Assembly: GCA_944320785.1 (NCBI GenBank)
Contig: CALUIR010000023.1
Location: 1 to 43,258 of the forward strand
Direction of reading: 5' to 3'
Length of the DNA: 43,258 nucleotides
Source: an uncultured Bacteroidaceae bacterium
GTDB lineage: Bacteria; Bacteroidota; Bacteroidia; Bacteroidales; Bacteroidaceae
This document shows, one piece after another, positions 32,648 to 43,004 of the stretch. The notes under the pieces were generated by a model, which saw only the letters and a list, made by a program, of their open reading frames with translations, did no database searches and was not told the origin of the DNA. Position numbers and translations under genes: made by a program. Numbering within the stretch: position 1 is the first letter of the stretch; each line of letters starts with the position of its first letter.

Positions 32648-35125
32648 ATGCAAAAGCAAAGCAAATGGATTAAATTTGAAGTGGCCGTGGGCTACATCCT
32701 GCTCATCTCGCTATTGGTGTATTCCGTCCTGTTCGTCTATCAGGAAATGGAACAATTGGCCGAACCTGACGTGTACGAAGAAGAAATGGAAACAAAACGG
32801 AAACTGCTGAACAGCACGCTGGCCCAACTGTACGAGGCAGAAGCCATCGGGCAATCACTCAGCATGGGCAACCTGTCAGACTATCCCACCTACCGGAAAG
32901 CCATGCGCAAGGCATCGGCGCTGATTGACAGCCTGCGCCAACAAACCTCAGATTCCCTGCAATGGCAACGCATGGACAGCATCACCTGGCTGCTGTCAAG
33001 GAAAGAACAAAACATGCTGGGACTGCTGGGAGCGCTCAACGACACAACCTTGGATCATGCCTACCAACAGAACGTGCAGCAAATCATCGAACGGCAAGAC
33101 TCTGTGGTAAAACAAAAACGGGTACAGAAGAAAGTTGTCATGAAACAGGATTCCTACCAAGTGCCACAAGAAAAAAAAGGCTTCTTCAAACGCTTGGCAG
33201 AAGCATTCATACCCCGCAGAAGGGACACCGCCACTGTCACCAACACTTCGCACGAAATCATCACCGACACCCTGACCATGGAATACAACCCGGCCGACAC
33301 CGTGGTCAACATCCTGAGAAGCATACAGATAGTCATCAATGACAAACAGCAGAAACGGGTCAAAATGTTGCAAGCCAAAGCCGCACGCCTCCGCTACGAC
33401 AGCCAGATACTGACTTCCCAAATCAACCAGATACTGAGGGACTTCGAGCAAGAGGAAATCAACCGCTCGCTGGCAAGAATGGAGCAAGTGCAACTCATCC
33501 GGCAAGAATCCATGCAGACCATCGGGAAGATAGCCATCGGATCTGCCGCATTGGCGCTCATATTCTTAATCTTCATCTGGAGGGACATTACCAAAAGCAA
33601 CCGCTACCGGCGTGAATTGGAAAAAGCCAAACAAAAAGCAGAAGACCTGCTGAAAACACGCGAACGGCTGATGCTGACCATCACCCACGACCTCAAAGCA
33701 CCCGTCGGTTCCATCATCGGCTACATCGACCTGCTGCAACGCCTCCTTACCGATGAACGACAGCTGAACTATCTGCGCAACATCAAACTGTCATCTGAGC
33801 ATTTGCTGAAATTAGTGAAAAGCCTGTTGGACTACCACAAATTAGACTCCAACAAGATGGAAACGAACATCCTGCCTTTCAGTCCCAAGCAGTTGTTCGA
33901 TGAAATCAACGCTTCCTTCATCCCAGTCGCCCACAAAAGGGACTTGGAATTCCACTACAGACTGACGCCGGATTTAGGCGAAAGGCTTTACCAAGGAGAC
34001 CCCTTCCGCATCCGCCAGATTGTTGACAACCTGGTTTCCAATGCCATCAAATTCACTTCCGAAGGCAATGTTTCCCTCACCGTGAATTACAATGAAGGGC
34101 AACTCATCATCCTCGTCGGCGACACCGGGAAAGGCATTGCCAAAGAAGAACAGGAAAAAATTTTCCTAGAATTCACACGGCTGAAGAACGCACAAGGCGA
34201 AGAAGGCTTCGGGCTGGGACTTGCCATCGTCCACAAATTGGTGGCATTGCTCAAGGGACACATCACGGTCAACAGCACGATAGGCAAAGGCAGCCTGTTC
34301 ACGGTATGCCTGCCATTGCCTCCCGCCACAGGGACAAAAGAAACAAGCAAGGAAACATCCACCCACCTTGCCCCGTTGCAGATCCTGCTGATTGACGATG
34401 ACCGGCTGCAATTAGACCTCACCGCCGCCATGTTGGAACAATTGAATGCCCAGCCCACATGTTGCCAGCACCCGGACGAACTGATGAAAGAACTGGAACA
34501 GCACCCATTCAACGTCCTCCTCACCGACGTGCAAATGCCCGCCATGGACGGATTCAGCTTGATAAAACGGCTGAAAGAATCCGCCATCCCTTCCGTCGCC
34601 GCCATCCCGGCCATCGCAGTCACAGCCAGGAGCGACATGGAAGAAGCAGACTTCCAGTCAAAAGGATTCATCACCTGCCTGCACAAGCCCTTTTCTTTAG
34701 AAGAACTGAAAACGGCATTGCAAAAAGCCCTGCCGCAACACGCCTTCCCAGCCATGCCATCCCTAAAGCCCGGCATGCGGCCCGCACCCGGCAACGACGC
34801 ATTGGACTTCCAGGCACTTACCGCCTTTTCGGAAGGCGACAGCCAAGCTGCACACGAAATAATAGAAACCTTCATACAAGAAACAGAAACCCACCTGCAA
34901 TCCTTGCAGAAAGCCCTGACAGAAAAGGATGCCGCCTGCATCACCGCCTTAGCCCACAAGATGCTTCCCTTGATGCGCATGCTCCATGCAAAGGAATGCA
35001 TCGCCGCCTTGGCATGGTTAGAGGAACACAGGAACGGCCTCTTCACCGGCAGCATGGAAGAACAAGCCCAATCAGCCATCCTCCATATTGAAAAAATAAT
35101 AAAGGAAGGGAAAACGCTCCTCTAA
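32648..35125 (+). CDS. Hybrid sensor histidine kinase with receiver and Hpt domains
   Basis: 825 aa. Two membrane spans (about 13-31 and 293-311) enclose a ~260-residue periplasmic sensor, predicted helical. The cytoplasmic part has, in order: HisKA with TITHDLKAP (His347); HATPase with VDNLVSNAIKFT (Asn465) and GDTGKGI (491-497); a receiver with LIDDD and LLTDVQMP (Asp627); and an Hpt-like C-terminus with ALAHKML (His770). A full phosphorelay His-Asp-His is thus present, and the next acceptor would be the receiver of the sigma-54 regulator encoded 72 bp downstream. The signal is unknown. Confidence 0.93.
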   Translation: MQKQSKWIKFEVAVGYILLISLLVYSVLFVYQEMEQLAEPDVYEEEMETKRKLLNSTLAQLYEAEAIGQSLSMGNLSDYPTYRKAMRKASALIDSLRQQTSDSLQWQRMDSITWLLSRKEQNMLGLLGALNDTTLDHAYQQNVQQIIERQDSVVKQKRVQKKVVMKQDSYQVPQEKKGFFKRLAEAFIPRRRDTATVTNTSHEIITDTLTMEYNPADTVVNILRSIQIVINDKQQKRVKMLQAKAARLRYDSQILTSQINQILRDFEQEEINRSLARMEQVQLIRQESMQTIGKIAIGSAALALIFLIFIWRDITKSNRYRRELEKAKQKAEDLLKTRERLMLTITHDLKAPVGSIIGYIDLLQRLLTDERQLNYLRNIKLSSEHLLKLVKSLLDYHKLDSNKMETNILPFSPKQLFDEINASFIPVAHKRDLEFHYRLTPDLGERLYQGDPFRIRQIVDNLVSNAIKFTSEGNVSLTVNYNEGQLIILVGDTGKGIAKEEQEKIFLEFTRLKNAQGEEGFGLGLAIVHKLVALLKGHITVNSTIGKGSLFTVCLPLPPATGTKETSKETSTHLAPLQILLIDDDRLQLDLTAAMLEQLNAQPTCCQHPDELMKELEQHPFNVLLTDVQMPAMDGFSLIKRLKESAIPSVAAIPAIAVTARSDMEEADFQSKGFITCLHKPFSLEELKTALQKALPQHAFPAMPSLKPGMRPAPGNDALDFQALTAFSEGDSQAAHEIIETFIQETETHLQSLQKALTEKDAACITALAHKMLPLMRMLHAKECIAALAWLEEHRNGLFTGSMEEQAQSAILHIEKIIKEGKTLL

Positions 35126-35197: not shown

Positions 35198-36574
35198 ATG
35201 GCCGCCTCCATACTAATCATAGAAGATGACATTACCTTTGGAATCATGCTGAAAACATGGCTCTCCAAAAAAGGCTTCACGGTGGATACCGCCAGCAGCA
35301 TTGCGCATGCACGCAAGCAGCTCCTGAACCATGCGTATGGGTTGGTGTTGTCAGACCTTCGCCTGCCGGACGGCGATGGCATCCAATTGTTGGAATGGAT
35401 GAACGGAAAGAAGCTGCATCTTCCTCTGATCATCATGACCGGGTACGCGGAAGTGCAGACCGCTGTCACGGCCATCAAGTCCGGGGCAAGCGATTACATA
35501 TCCAAGCCTGTCAACCCGGATGAACTGCTGAAAAAAATCAACGATGCCCTAGCCAATCCACAGCCAGCCACCAACGAAATCCCAAAGAAAAAAACGTCAT
35601 CTCCTGAACATCCTGCCGGAAACCATCACCCCAACCATCAGGCATGGCAAGAAAACTTCTTGGAAGGAAACAGCGAAGCGGCCAAACAATTGTACAACTA
35701 TGTACGCTTAGTGGCGCCGACATCCATGTCGGTGCTGATAAACGGAGCCAGCGGAACCGGGAAAGAATACGTGGCACACCGCATCCACCAGCTAAGCGAC
35801 AGGGCCGACAAGCCTTTCATTGCCATCGATTGCGGCTCCATTCCCAAAGAACTCGCCGCTTCTGAATTCTTCGGCCATGTGAAAGGTTCGTTCACAGGGG
35901 CTTTGACCAACAAGACAGGAGCTTTCGTTGCAGCCAACGGAGGAACCATATTCTTGGACGAAATCGGGAACCTCAGCTACGAAGTGCAGGTGCAGCTGCT
36001 GAGGGCTTTGCAGGAACGCCGCGTGCGTCCCGTCGGGTCCATCGAAGAAATCGAAGTAAACATCCGTTTCATCTCTGCCACCAATGAAGACCTGCAACTA
36101 GCCATCAAAAAAGGAGCTTTCCGGGAAGACCTTTACCACCGCATCAACGAATTCACACTCAAGATGCCAAGCCTGAAAGAACGCAAGGAAGACATCTTGC
36201 TGTTTGCCAATTTCTTCCTCGACCAAGCCAACAAAGAATTAGGCAAACACCTGCTCGGGTTCGACTTCAAAGCAGCTGAAACCATACAAAACTACCAATG
36301 GCCCGGCAACCTAAGGCAACTGAAAAACACGGTAAGGCGCGCCACGTTATTGGCACAAAACGACTATATCGGCATCAGCGACTTAGGGTACGACATGAAA
36401 GAAGAACCCCTCGGCAACGTTTCTTTCCCGTTACGCGACGAGAAAAGGGAAAAAGAGCAGATATTGGAAGCGCTCCAGCAAACCAACAACAACAAGAGCA
36501 AAGCCGCCGTGCTGTTGGGCATAGACAGGAAAACCCTCTACAACAAACTTAAACTTTACAACATAGAAGCATAA
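35198..36574 (+). CDS. Sigma-54-dependent response regulator (NtrC/AtoC type)
   Basis: 458 aa. The receiver (1-120) has IIEDD (9-11 acidic pocket), DLRLPDGDG (Asp53) and ISKPV (Lys103). The AAA+ sigma-54 interaction domain (about 150-380) has Walker A GASGTGKE (183-190), loop GSFTGA in place of the more usual GAFTGA (230-235), and Walker B IFLDEI (251-256). The C-terminal Fis-type HTH is at about 430-452 (KAAVLLGIDRKTLYNKL). It should activate RNA polymerase carrying RpoN. A TATTTTTG at 35170 may be its own -7 box. A consensus sigma-54 promoter lies 118 bp behind its stop codon and is the obvious candidate target. Confidence 0.95.
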   Translation: MAASILIIEDDITFGIMLKTWLSKKGFTVDTASSIAHARKQLLNHAYGLVLSDLRLPDGDGIQLLEWMNGKKLHLPLIIMTGYAEVQTAVTAIKSGASDYISKPVNPDELLKKINDALANPQPATNEIPKKKTSSPEHPAGNHHPNHQAWQENFLEGNSEAAKQLYNYVRLVAPTSMSVLINGASGTGKEYVAHRIHQLSDRADKPFIAIDCGSIPKELAASEFFGHVKGSFTGALTNKTGAFVAANGGTIFLDEIGNLSYEVQVQLLRALQERRVRPVGSIEEIEVNIRFISATNEDLQLAIKKGAFREDLYHRINEFTLKMPSLKERKEDILLFANFFLDQANKELGKHLLGFDFKAAETIQNYQWPGNLRQLKNTVRRATLLAQNDYIGISDLGYDMKEEPLGNVSFPLRDEKREKEQILEALQQTNNNKSKAAVLLGIDRKTLYNKLKLYNIEA

Positions 36575-36598
36575 CAGGGGAATCTTTACACAACACCA

Positions 36599-36624
36599 TC
36601 CACACGTTTCCACACTTTCCACAC
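36599..36624. promoter_or_regulatory. Candidate activator-binding repeats upstream of the sigma-54 promoter
   Basis: Two perfect tandem 9-mers TTTCCACAC (36607-36615 and 36616-36624) are preceded by TCCACAC (36599-36605). They lie about 95-120 bp upstream of the predicted start site, a normal distance for enhancer sites of NtrC-type activators. Binding is inferred. Confidence 0.4.
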
Positions 36625-36692: not shown

Positions 36693-36708
36693 TGGCACGC
36701 TTCTTGCA
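36693..36708 (+). promoter_or_regulatory. Consensus sigma-54 (-24/-12) promoter
   Basis: TGGCACG-CTTC-TTGCA, with a preceding T, matches the RpoN consensus YTGGCACGrNNNTTGCW except for one weakly conserved position. GG (36694-36695) and GC (36706-36707) are exactly 12 bp apart. The predicted transcription start is about 36718-36720, reading rightward away from the sigma-54 regulator gene. Confidence 0.85.
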
Positions 36709-36718
36709 AGTCTTTATG

Positions 36719-36837
36719 TGAACGAATAGGTTGGACCAATACATCCTATTCAATCAGCATAACATTTAAGCACAGACGTTTCTATTTGAGAGAATGGCCG
36801 CTGCCTGTATTAGCGAATACAAGGCAGCGGCTTTTTT
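36719..36837 (+). ncRNA. Candidate sigma-54-dependent small RNA (~120 nt)
   Basis: The segment runs from the predicted sigma-54 start to the last T of a strong terminator. It begins with a stem-loop: GAATAGG (36724-36730) / CCTATTC (36745-36751), with inner TTG/CAA. A single-stranded AU-rich linker follows (about 36752-36796), then the terminator hairpin. No convincing ORF exists; the only ATG (36795) reads into the terminator (18 codons, MAACISEYKAAAFL...). This 5' hairpin, open linker and 3' terminator form typical trans-acting sRNAs. Its place next to a sigma-54 activator and sensor kinase recalls qrr/luxO and glmY/glrR loci. Expression and function are untested here. Confidence 0.65.
36797..36837 (+). 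terminator. Strong intrinsic terminator of the candidate sRNA
   Basis: The stem GCCGCTGCCT / AGGCAGCGGC, extended by GTATT/AATAC with loop AGCG, is followed by six T residues. It lies 8 bp before the stop codon of the convergent pseudouridine synthase gene. Confidence 0.92.
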
Positions 36838-39105: not shown

Positions 39106-39178
<73 letters not shown>

Positions 39179-42416: not shown

Positions 42417-43004
42417 TCATGAATCAGGACACTTTCCCTTGACGTTTTTAATGTATTCCCCGGGCGTTTGCCACATGAAACGCTTAAAAGCAGCGTGAAA
42501 AGTGGCACGGCTCTTGAAACCGACAGAAGCAGCTATCGTTTCAAGCGTCAGATTGCTGAAATCAGAATGCTCGATCCTACGGCGGGCTTCCTCGATGCGG
42601 TAACGGCTGAGCAACAAACTGAAGTTGGACTCATACAACTCATTGATCACTTGCGACACATATTTTGGATTGGAATTGCACAAAGCCGCCAGACGCTCAA
42701 GGTTGAAATCCGCAGCATAAATTTCATCGCCATTGGCAAGAATTTCCTGAATCTTATCCTTCAATTTCTGTTTTGCCGGGACGTCAAGCGTACTTCCTGC
42801 ATATTTCCTGATGCTTTTGGCTTCCGGCAACTTCTTCCGGCGGCGTGCAACGCGGCCGAATAACAAGGCGACAACGGCAACGGTCATCACGAACAGACCT
42901 ATCTTTAAGTAACGGTTATCCCGCCGGTTCCGGGAGAGTTCATACTCGTTCTGCTCTATCTGTTGCAAAAGTCGCATGGCAGCCACCTCGTCAAGCTTGT
43001 CCAC
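42417..43004 (-). pseudogene. 5'-truncated membrane-anchored AraC-family regulator
   Basis: 195 codons are open from a GTG at 43004 (an ATG follows at residue 10). The kept part has a helical stub (EQNEYELSRNRRDNR), one membrane span (33-50, YLKIGLFVMTVAVVALLF) and an intact AraC double HTH: first helix pair ~103-122, second ~153-172 with TIAASVGFKSRATFHAAFKR. Bacteroidetes regulators of this design normally carry a long periplasmic TPR sensor before the span, which is missing here. An in-frame stop lies four codons upstream of the GTG. A short ATG frame at about 43035-43049 may be the original start. It could still make a constitutive protein. Confidence 0.65.

Follow-up and report, generated by a model that had tools for sequence, protein, structure and literature searches.

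Transcription of glnA is driven by sigma-54 and NtrC. In enterobacteria the 3' UTR of the glnA mRNA is cut to yield a small RNA (sRNA), GlnZ, as described in the available portion of PMC9731577. In the Vibrionaceae the NtrC-type regulator LuxO and a sigma-54 promoter drive the Qrr sRNAs (PMC10162802, available sections), and in Escherichia coli the two-component system QseE/QseF (GlrK/GlrR) acts through upstream activating sites and sigma-54 on the sRNA GlmY (PMC6075780, available sections). Within the Bacteroidota, the accessible text of PMC9723704 places a sigma-54 motif at RNA-seq-mapped 5' ends in Flavobacterium psychrophilum and includes Rfp36, a putative regulatory RNA with a mapped 5' end behind a sigma-54-type promoter.

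For Bacteroides thetaiotaomicron, GrpE and GroES are described as sigma-54-dependent in PMC12316311, the available part of which contains neither "sRNA" nor "small RNA". The main text of the transcriptome paper on this species (PMC7366714) does not use sigma54, sigma-54, RpoN or NtrC, the RbpB paper (PMC11697453) does not use sigma54, RpoN or NtrC, and in the available part of PMC10434189, also on B. thetaiotaomicron, "sigma-54" and "small RNA" occur only in unrelated places. A literature search with supplements outside its scope, and subscription journals mostly so, found no published sigma-54-driven sRNA in Bacteroidales. This agrees with an earlier reading of the present DNA from its letters alone (the sequence-only reading), which knew of no described example in the order, although the phylum already has Rfp36 behind a sigma-54 promoter in the accessible text of PMC9723704.

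The locus and its genes

The window, meaning the whole stretch of 43,258 nucleotides analysed here, belongs to the 2.57-Mb, 84% complete genome of an uncultured Bacteroidaceae bacterium in which one rpoN gene was found. A MATE transporter gene is followed by genes for a hybrid kinase and a sigma-54 response regulator, then by a 270-bp gap and a convergent pseudouridine synthase gene. The gap contains TTCCACAC repeats (36599-36624), a -24/-12 element and about 119 nt closed by a strong hairpin and six T. The features are as follows.

32648..35125, + strand: hybrid histidine kinase (HisKA, HATPase_c and receiver domain matches; Hpt below its cutoff)
35198..36574, + strand: sigma-54-dependent response regulator (receiver, AAA+ sigma-54 activation domain, Fis-type HTH)
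36577..36624, + strand: likely activator sites (degenerate GGGGAATCTTTACACA at 36577-36592; TCCACAC at 36599-36605; TTCCACAC at 36608-36615 and 36617-36624)
36693..36708, + strand: sigma-54 -24/-12 promoter TGGCACGCTTCTTGCA (exact element; position conserved in orthologs)
36719..36837, + strand: predicted sRNA of about 119 nt (start placed from the -12 element)
36719..36756, + strand: 5' stem-loop (z -3.5; 1/200 shuffles equally good)
36766..36794, + strand: open linker TTAAGCACAGACGTTTCTATTTGAGAGAA (z +0.5, unstructured; 29/29 identical in the sister species)
36797..36837, + strand: intrinsic terminator (9-bp stem, inner stem-loop, six T; z -5.7; 0/200 shuffles equally good)

The domain matches agree with the identities first proposed for kinase and regulator, with the Hpt domain below its cutoff. 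By hydropathy the kinase has two transmembrane segments with about 260 aa between them. Models for particular regulators were rejected: LuxO (316 bits against a cutoff of 800), GlrR (352 against 763) and NtrC (NR-I) proper (363 against 558.6). A tRNA gene lies at 39106-39178 of the window, and several related loci likewise have a tRNA some 2-3 kb past the regulator; judged from the loci compared, this is a conserved neighbourhood.

A regulator-site-promoter unit across genera

The exact RpoN promoter reported in the sequence-only reading is present, 118 bp behind the regulator stop (36574). Taken by itself, a -24/-12 match is weak evidence. Genome-wide, TGGCAYGNNNNTTGCW has two exact matches and its reversed control has one, and the second of the two sits inside a coding stretch that is carB-like by our own reading; at up to two mismatches the pattern occurs 16 times in the window against 18.75 expected. 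Because the pattern alone proves little, the case for the promoter rests on comparison. A further sigma-54-like site, TGGCACGGCTCTTGAA at 42503-42518 of the window, has one mismatch, lies inside an ORF of the other strand and is probably due to chance.

DNA behind orthologous regulators was taken at 132 loci, of which 118 were distinct and 114 were tested, four shorter than 340 nt being left out. Within 420 nt, 90 of the 114 distinct loci have a -24/-12 element that matches 9 or more of the 10 specified bases and 24 do not, compared with 1.35% of 5700 shuffles, a rate that may be somewhat low since the approximate dinucleotide shuffle used can stop early.

Between regulator stop and promoter the orthologs usually carry TGTGGAA-N3-TTCCACA dyads or TTCCACA repeats, and these are likely activator sites. 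The exact dyad is absent from the window's genome and the dyad of the window is degenerate; TTTCCACACTTTCCACA at up to two mismatches occurs once in that genome, at the locus behind the regulator. Among 399 family genomes the exact dyad, TGTGGAANNNTTCCACA, has 53 sites in 50 genomes, with 34 sites within 250 bp downstream of the regulator, three at 0.7-1.8 kb and 16 elsewhere. The regulator is present in 42 of the 50 dyad-bearing genomes versus 97 of 399 overall, a co-occurrence whose Fisher value overstates the association because the genomes are related. Sixteen of 19 dyads away from the regulator were examined, and a -24/-12 element stands within 450 bp on one strand in 11 of them and in none of the other five, as a raw count without shuffle control. 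Some dyads lie on a different contig from the regulator match (e.g. L228 and L234), and the promoter is present at L294-L297 and L299, where the approximately 3 kb taken showed no regulator. On this comparative evidence, regulator, sites and promoter are linked across genera as one unit. The kinase is the looser part of it because a kinase match lies beside the orthologous regulator at only 22 of 37 named loci, some of which are cut by contig ends. The compact phosphorelay-to-sRNA circuit first proposed is supported as to activator, promoter and RNA, to which likely activator sites are added, and less firmly as to the kinase.

Several dyad-promoter units have other surroundings. At L230 (Bacteroides, G271) and L234 (related genome, G293) a dyad and sigma-54 promoter precede membrane-fusion-like proteins, with weak HlyD / biotin-lipoyl Pfam matches below cutoff (E 0.0081 and 0.0035), which are possible efflux targets of the same regulator. 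At L232 the P. vulgatus genome has another dyad-promoter unit, which precedes a small exported protein of similar kind. At L237, where the dyad lies 777 bp behind the regulator, and at L239, dyad and promoter are followed by transcripts without an evident exported-protein ORF.

The predicted RNA and its conservation

The segment 36719-36838 folds at -40.1 kcal/mol (z -5.6; 0/200 shuffles equally good), most of this strength coming from the 5' hairpin and the terminator. The terminator consists of a hairpin at 36797-36831, which a simple terminator scan missed, and six T at 36832-36837. Inside the predicted RNA the only ATG ORF starts at 36794 and has 19 codons, and no + strand ORF of at least 20 aa starts there. 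Rfam at gathering score found only a tRNA over the window, at E<=5 only two microRNA chance matches over the locus, and over 16 related loci nothing beyond tRNAs and part of a group II intron.

The one congener compared is the uncultured Bacteroides sp. isolate SI.A6, family Bacteroidaceae. Its promoter is kept with TTGT for TTGC (GT in place of the final GC), and the terminator core is identical at 33/33 positions with one insertion. At fourfold sites the two regulator genes agree in only 82/156 cases (52.6%), a rate at which the odds of 29 identical bases, as in the linker, are about 1e-8 by a hand calculation for a place that was not preset. The congener RNA folds at z -6.6, and its 5' part folds alone into a 7-bp stem, unlike that of the window in sequence (z -2.9). 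A two-sequence consensus fold did not recover the 5' hairpin; of its 26 pairs a single one, at the foot of the terminator stem, has changed on both sides. The ATG of the 19-codon ORF is missing in the congener, which has an ORF of at least 20 aa from a TTG at the linker end that reads through the terminator; a one-base insertion puts this TTG frame out of register with the window. At up to three mismatches the linker occurs in two of 399 family genomes, those of the window and the congener, and the window RNA was likewise found in only two genomes (2/101 in one search, 2/399 in another). By this comparison the window RNA is under selection, its 3' half being strongly conserved in the one congener.

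Most of what the sequence-only reading said of this segment is upheld, including about 120 nt without a supported ORF before a terminator (the short ATG ORF is not kept in the congener) and the order of 5' stem-loop, open linker and terminator hairpin, to which the z-scores listed above correspond. It had also singled out beforehand, as a point on which it could fail, conservation in close relatives that keep the regulator; the outcome favours it, in that the congener keeps promoter and terminator and folds a 5' hairpin.

The linker is a candidate functional or seed segment. A search for target sites with the 18-base linker complement, allowing G-U and two mismatches, gave no excess in either genome (25 matches versus 22 for the reversed control, and 20 versus 32 in the other genome, self matches included), and as a search with one 18-base pattern it is weak and uninformative.

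Coding and ORF-less transcripts under one promoter

Transcripts were called protein-coding by a rule of our own, which asks, within about 230 nt, for an ATG ORF that has a signal-like start and 55 aa or more. Among the 90 promoter-bearing loci, 51 carry such a small exported-protein ORF, 23 form one ORF-less family in Phocaeicola and 16 others are ORF-less, namely the window and the congener, 12 loci from Bacteroides, L017, and L199, which a contig end truncates. With window and congener excluded, 51 of 88 have the ORF and 37 lack it by the rule. An sRNA is thus only one outcome of this promoter because 51 of 90 loci carry an exported-protein ORF, which qualifies the first proposal. Judged by these sequences, the window holds an ORF-less form of a unit that more often carries a small exported-protein ORF. 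The exported proteins vary by clade; that of the P. vulgatus type is similar to PepSY_like, though at 21.3 bits it stays under the curated cutoff of 28.3. In B. fragilis-type transcripts (L093-L095) a broken near-duplicate of the small-protein gene start precedes the intact copy.

In a tree of 62 regulators, those of the ORF-less Phocaeicola loci form one clade, and an ORF-bearing Bacteroides row is nested within an ORF-less clade. At least three ORF losses in Bacteroides follow if a lost ORF is never regained; well-supported branches alone force only two changes of the "other ORF-less" label. The window's genus stands at an unresolved fork.

Two 3' RNA modules are shared between coding and ORF-less transcripts. 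The covariance model R2, for which the training set was limited to 20 ORF-less Phocaeicola transcripts, recognises the 3' end of six mRNAs of the P. vulgatus type (E 5e-9 to 1e-7), against a yardstick of E 0.003-0.07 reached by reverse-strand matches on the same terminators; two more protein-type loci, L070 and L099, gave no match. The Bacteroides module, modelled as R1, consists of GCCGAAUAAUAGUAAGCACACU followed by a terminator whose loop is of a conserved UUGUCUAUUC type, and closes 10 ORF-bearing and nine ORF-less transcripts (19 aligned). Paired changes in the Phocaeicola terminator stem lie above at least 499 of 500 shuffles on every measure. Those in the Bacteroides stem, in which 92.4% of cells are paired, lie above all shuffles on three of five measures and above 487 of 500 on a fourth, with the number of pair types no better than shuffles. 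Both modules are near single-copy: R2 was found once in 41 of 60 Phocaeicola genomes and not in 19, and R1 once in 33 of 60 Bacteroides genomes, twice in one and not in 26, counts made with strict filters on genomes many of which are incomplete. The promoter stands upstream in all 20 top-scoring loci of the R1 and R2 searches, 10 of which are training-set loci. Eight places, three of which belong to those 20, were taken with more upstream sequence; the promoter is present in 8/8 and the regulator within about 3 kb in 3/8.

Because ORF-bearing and ORF-less forms share a 3' module in both Phocaeicola and Bacteroides, ORFs were probably lost repeatedly in these genera. Descent of the window RNA from an mRNA is only plausible because neither model fits it: R1 gave a best + strand score of 1.9 bits, and a default-filter search with R2 had no match in the window at E<=1. 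A shared 8-mer, TAAGCACA, suggested that the window RNA might be homologous to the Bacteroides module, but R1 does not support this and the idea was set aside; the 8-mer occurs in 13 of 90 loci including window and congener against 0.87 expected, by a crude shuffle and for a motif chosen after it was seen.

The sequence CCTGTTTATGTTTGTTTGTG, signal-peptide coding in relatives, is kept at the nucleotide level in 10 of the 12 ORF-less Bacteroides loci (L069, L074, L078, L079, L081, L082, L104, L106, L175 and L180) and is absent at L186 and L193. Its retention although no ORF passes the rule suggests RNA-level selection on it in these loci.

Interpretation and rival explanations

There is good reason to think that 36719-36837 is a sigma-54-dependent sRNA gene switched by the adjacent kinase and regulator, most likely trans-acting. 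The linkage of regulator, sites and promoter across genera, and the conservation of the RNA's 3' half in the one congener, come from comparison; transcription, phosphorylation, binding, signal and trans action are what we infer. The membrane hybrid kinase would sense an envelope signal and pass phosphate to the response regulator, which may then oligomerise on the TTCCACA repeats immediately downstream of its gene and, through its AAA+ domain, open sigma-54 holoenzyme on the -24/-12 element. An RNA of about 119 nt, ending at the terminator, would be made, protected presumably by its 5' hairpin and terminator, and would act through the conserved open linker by mRNA pairing or protein binding. 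The exported-protein outputs, the membrane-fusion-like proteins of L230 and L234 and the F. psychrophilum sigma-54 regulon suggest an envelope theme for the circuit.

That the region is simply the end of the kinase-regulator operon, a 3' UTR with its terminator, and the promoter-like site arose by chance, would suit a terminator 222 bp behind the regulator stop and a promoter match that alone is not rare genome-wide. It is nevertheless very unlikely, as regulators from different genera are also followed by promoter and repeats, and promoter/dyad units occur also where no regulator was found (L294-L297, L299) or on another contig (L228, L234). It is most improbable that the transcript serves to encode a short peptide, either the 19-codon ATG ORF at 36794 or a leader peptide. 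In favour of it, the same promoter serves small exported proteins in relatives, and both species have a frame, starting at a TTG and running through the terminator, that stays open until the insertion. Against it, the sister species lacks the ATG, the insertion throws the open frame out of register, and nearly all of the identical linker precedes the ATG ORF.

A role in cis or as a decoy is a minor but real possibility; the RNA would then bind the regulator mRNA or titrate an RNA-binding protein and not pair with mRNAs in trans. The genome holds no excess of complementary sites, and the linker, conserved and unpaired, could serve a protein as its binding site; against this, the target search, made with one 18-base pattern, is weak, and a cis role is disfavoured in relatives because some of their loci have no adjacent regulator. 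Action of the window RNA in trans seems probable.

A broader reading, on which the balance is about even, is that of a Bacteroidales-wide dual-function sigma-54 transcript, a small exported protein with a conserved 3' RNA module, whose ORF would have disappeared in several independent events, at least three of them in Bacteroides and others in Phocaeicola and the window's genus, so that pure regulatory RNAs remain under the same switch. If true, the conversion of mRNA to sRNA could be traced stepwise across living species. The family offers a natural series under one promoter, from mRNA through mRNA with a conserved RNA tail to ORF-less RNA, so that the origin of sRNAs from mRNAs is directly testable, e.g. 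in P. vulgatus ATCC 8482, as is a sigma-54 activator circuit with sRNA output in major gut commensals.

Comparison with known systems

By its sequence the locus has the attributes of a sigma-54-dependent sRNA: the promoter, activator sites with their activator and, in two species, no conserved ORF together with a terminator. The likeness to qrr/luxO or glmY/glrR drawn in the sequence-only reading is therefore fair as to mechanistic class but does not extend to membership, which the regulator and Rfam models failed to support. Like LuxO/Qrr in the available sections of PMC10162802, the window pairs an NtrC-type regulator and sigma-54 promoter with an sRNA; unlike it, the regulator failed the LuxO model, the RNA has no Rfam sRNA match and relatives encode proteins in the unit. 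With GlrR/GlmY, as available in PMC6075780, it shares a two-component system, upstream sites, a sigma-54 promoter, an sRNA and a cell-envelope theme, but the GlrR model failed, no Rfam sRNA match was obtained and the window has a hybrid kinase. Rfp36 is likewise a putative regulatory RNA behind a sigma-54-type promoter in the same phylum, but in the accessible text of PMC9723704 it is a table row with no link to a neighbouring activator seen there, and is likened here by description, not sequence. The Phocaeicola and Bacteroides relatives resemble GlnZ (PMC9731577, available portion) in that a conserved RNA module occupies the 3' UTR of an mRNA; GlnZ is excised from its mRNA, whereas the ORF-less forms here own the promoter alone. 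Thus sigma-54-driven sRNAs are an already known kind, represented by Qrr, GlmY and a putative one in Flavobacterium, while the wider family of coding and noncoding transcripts under one sigma-54 switch looks new.
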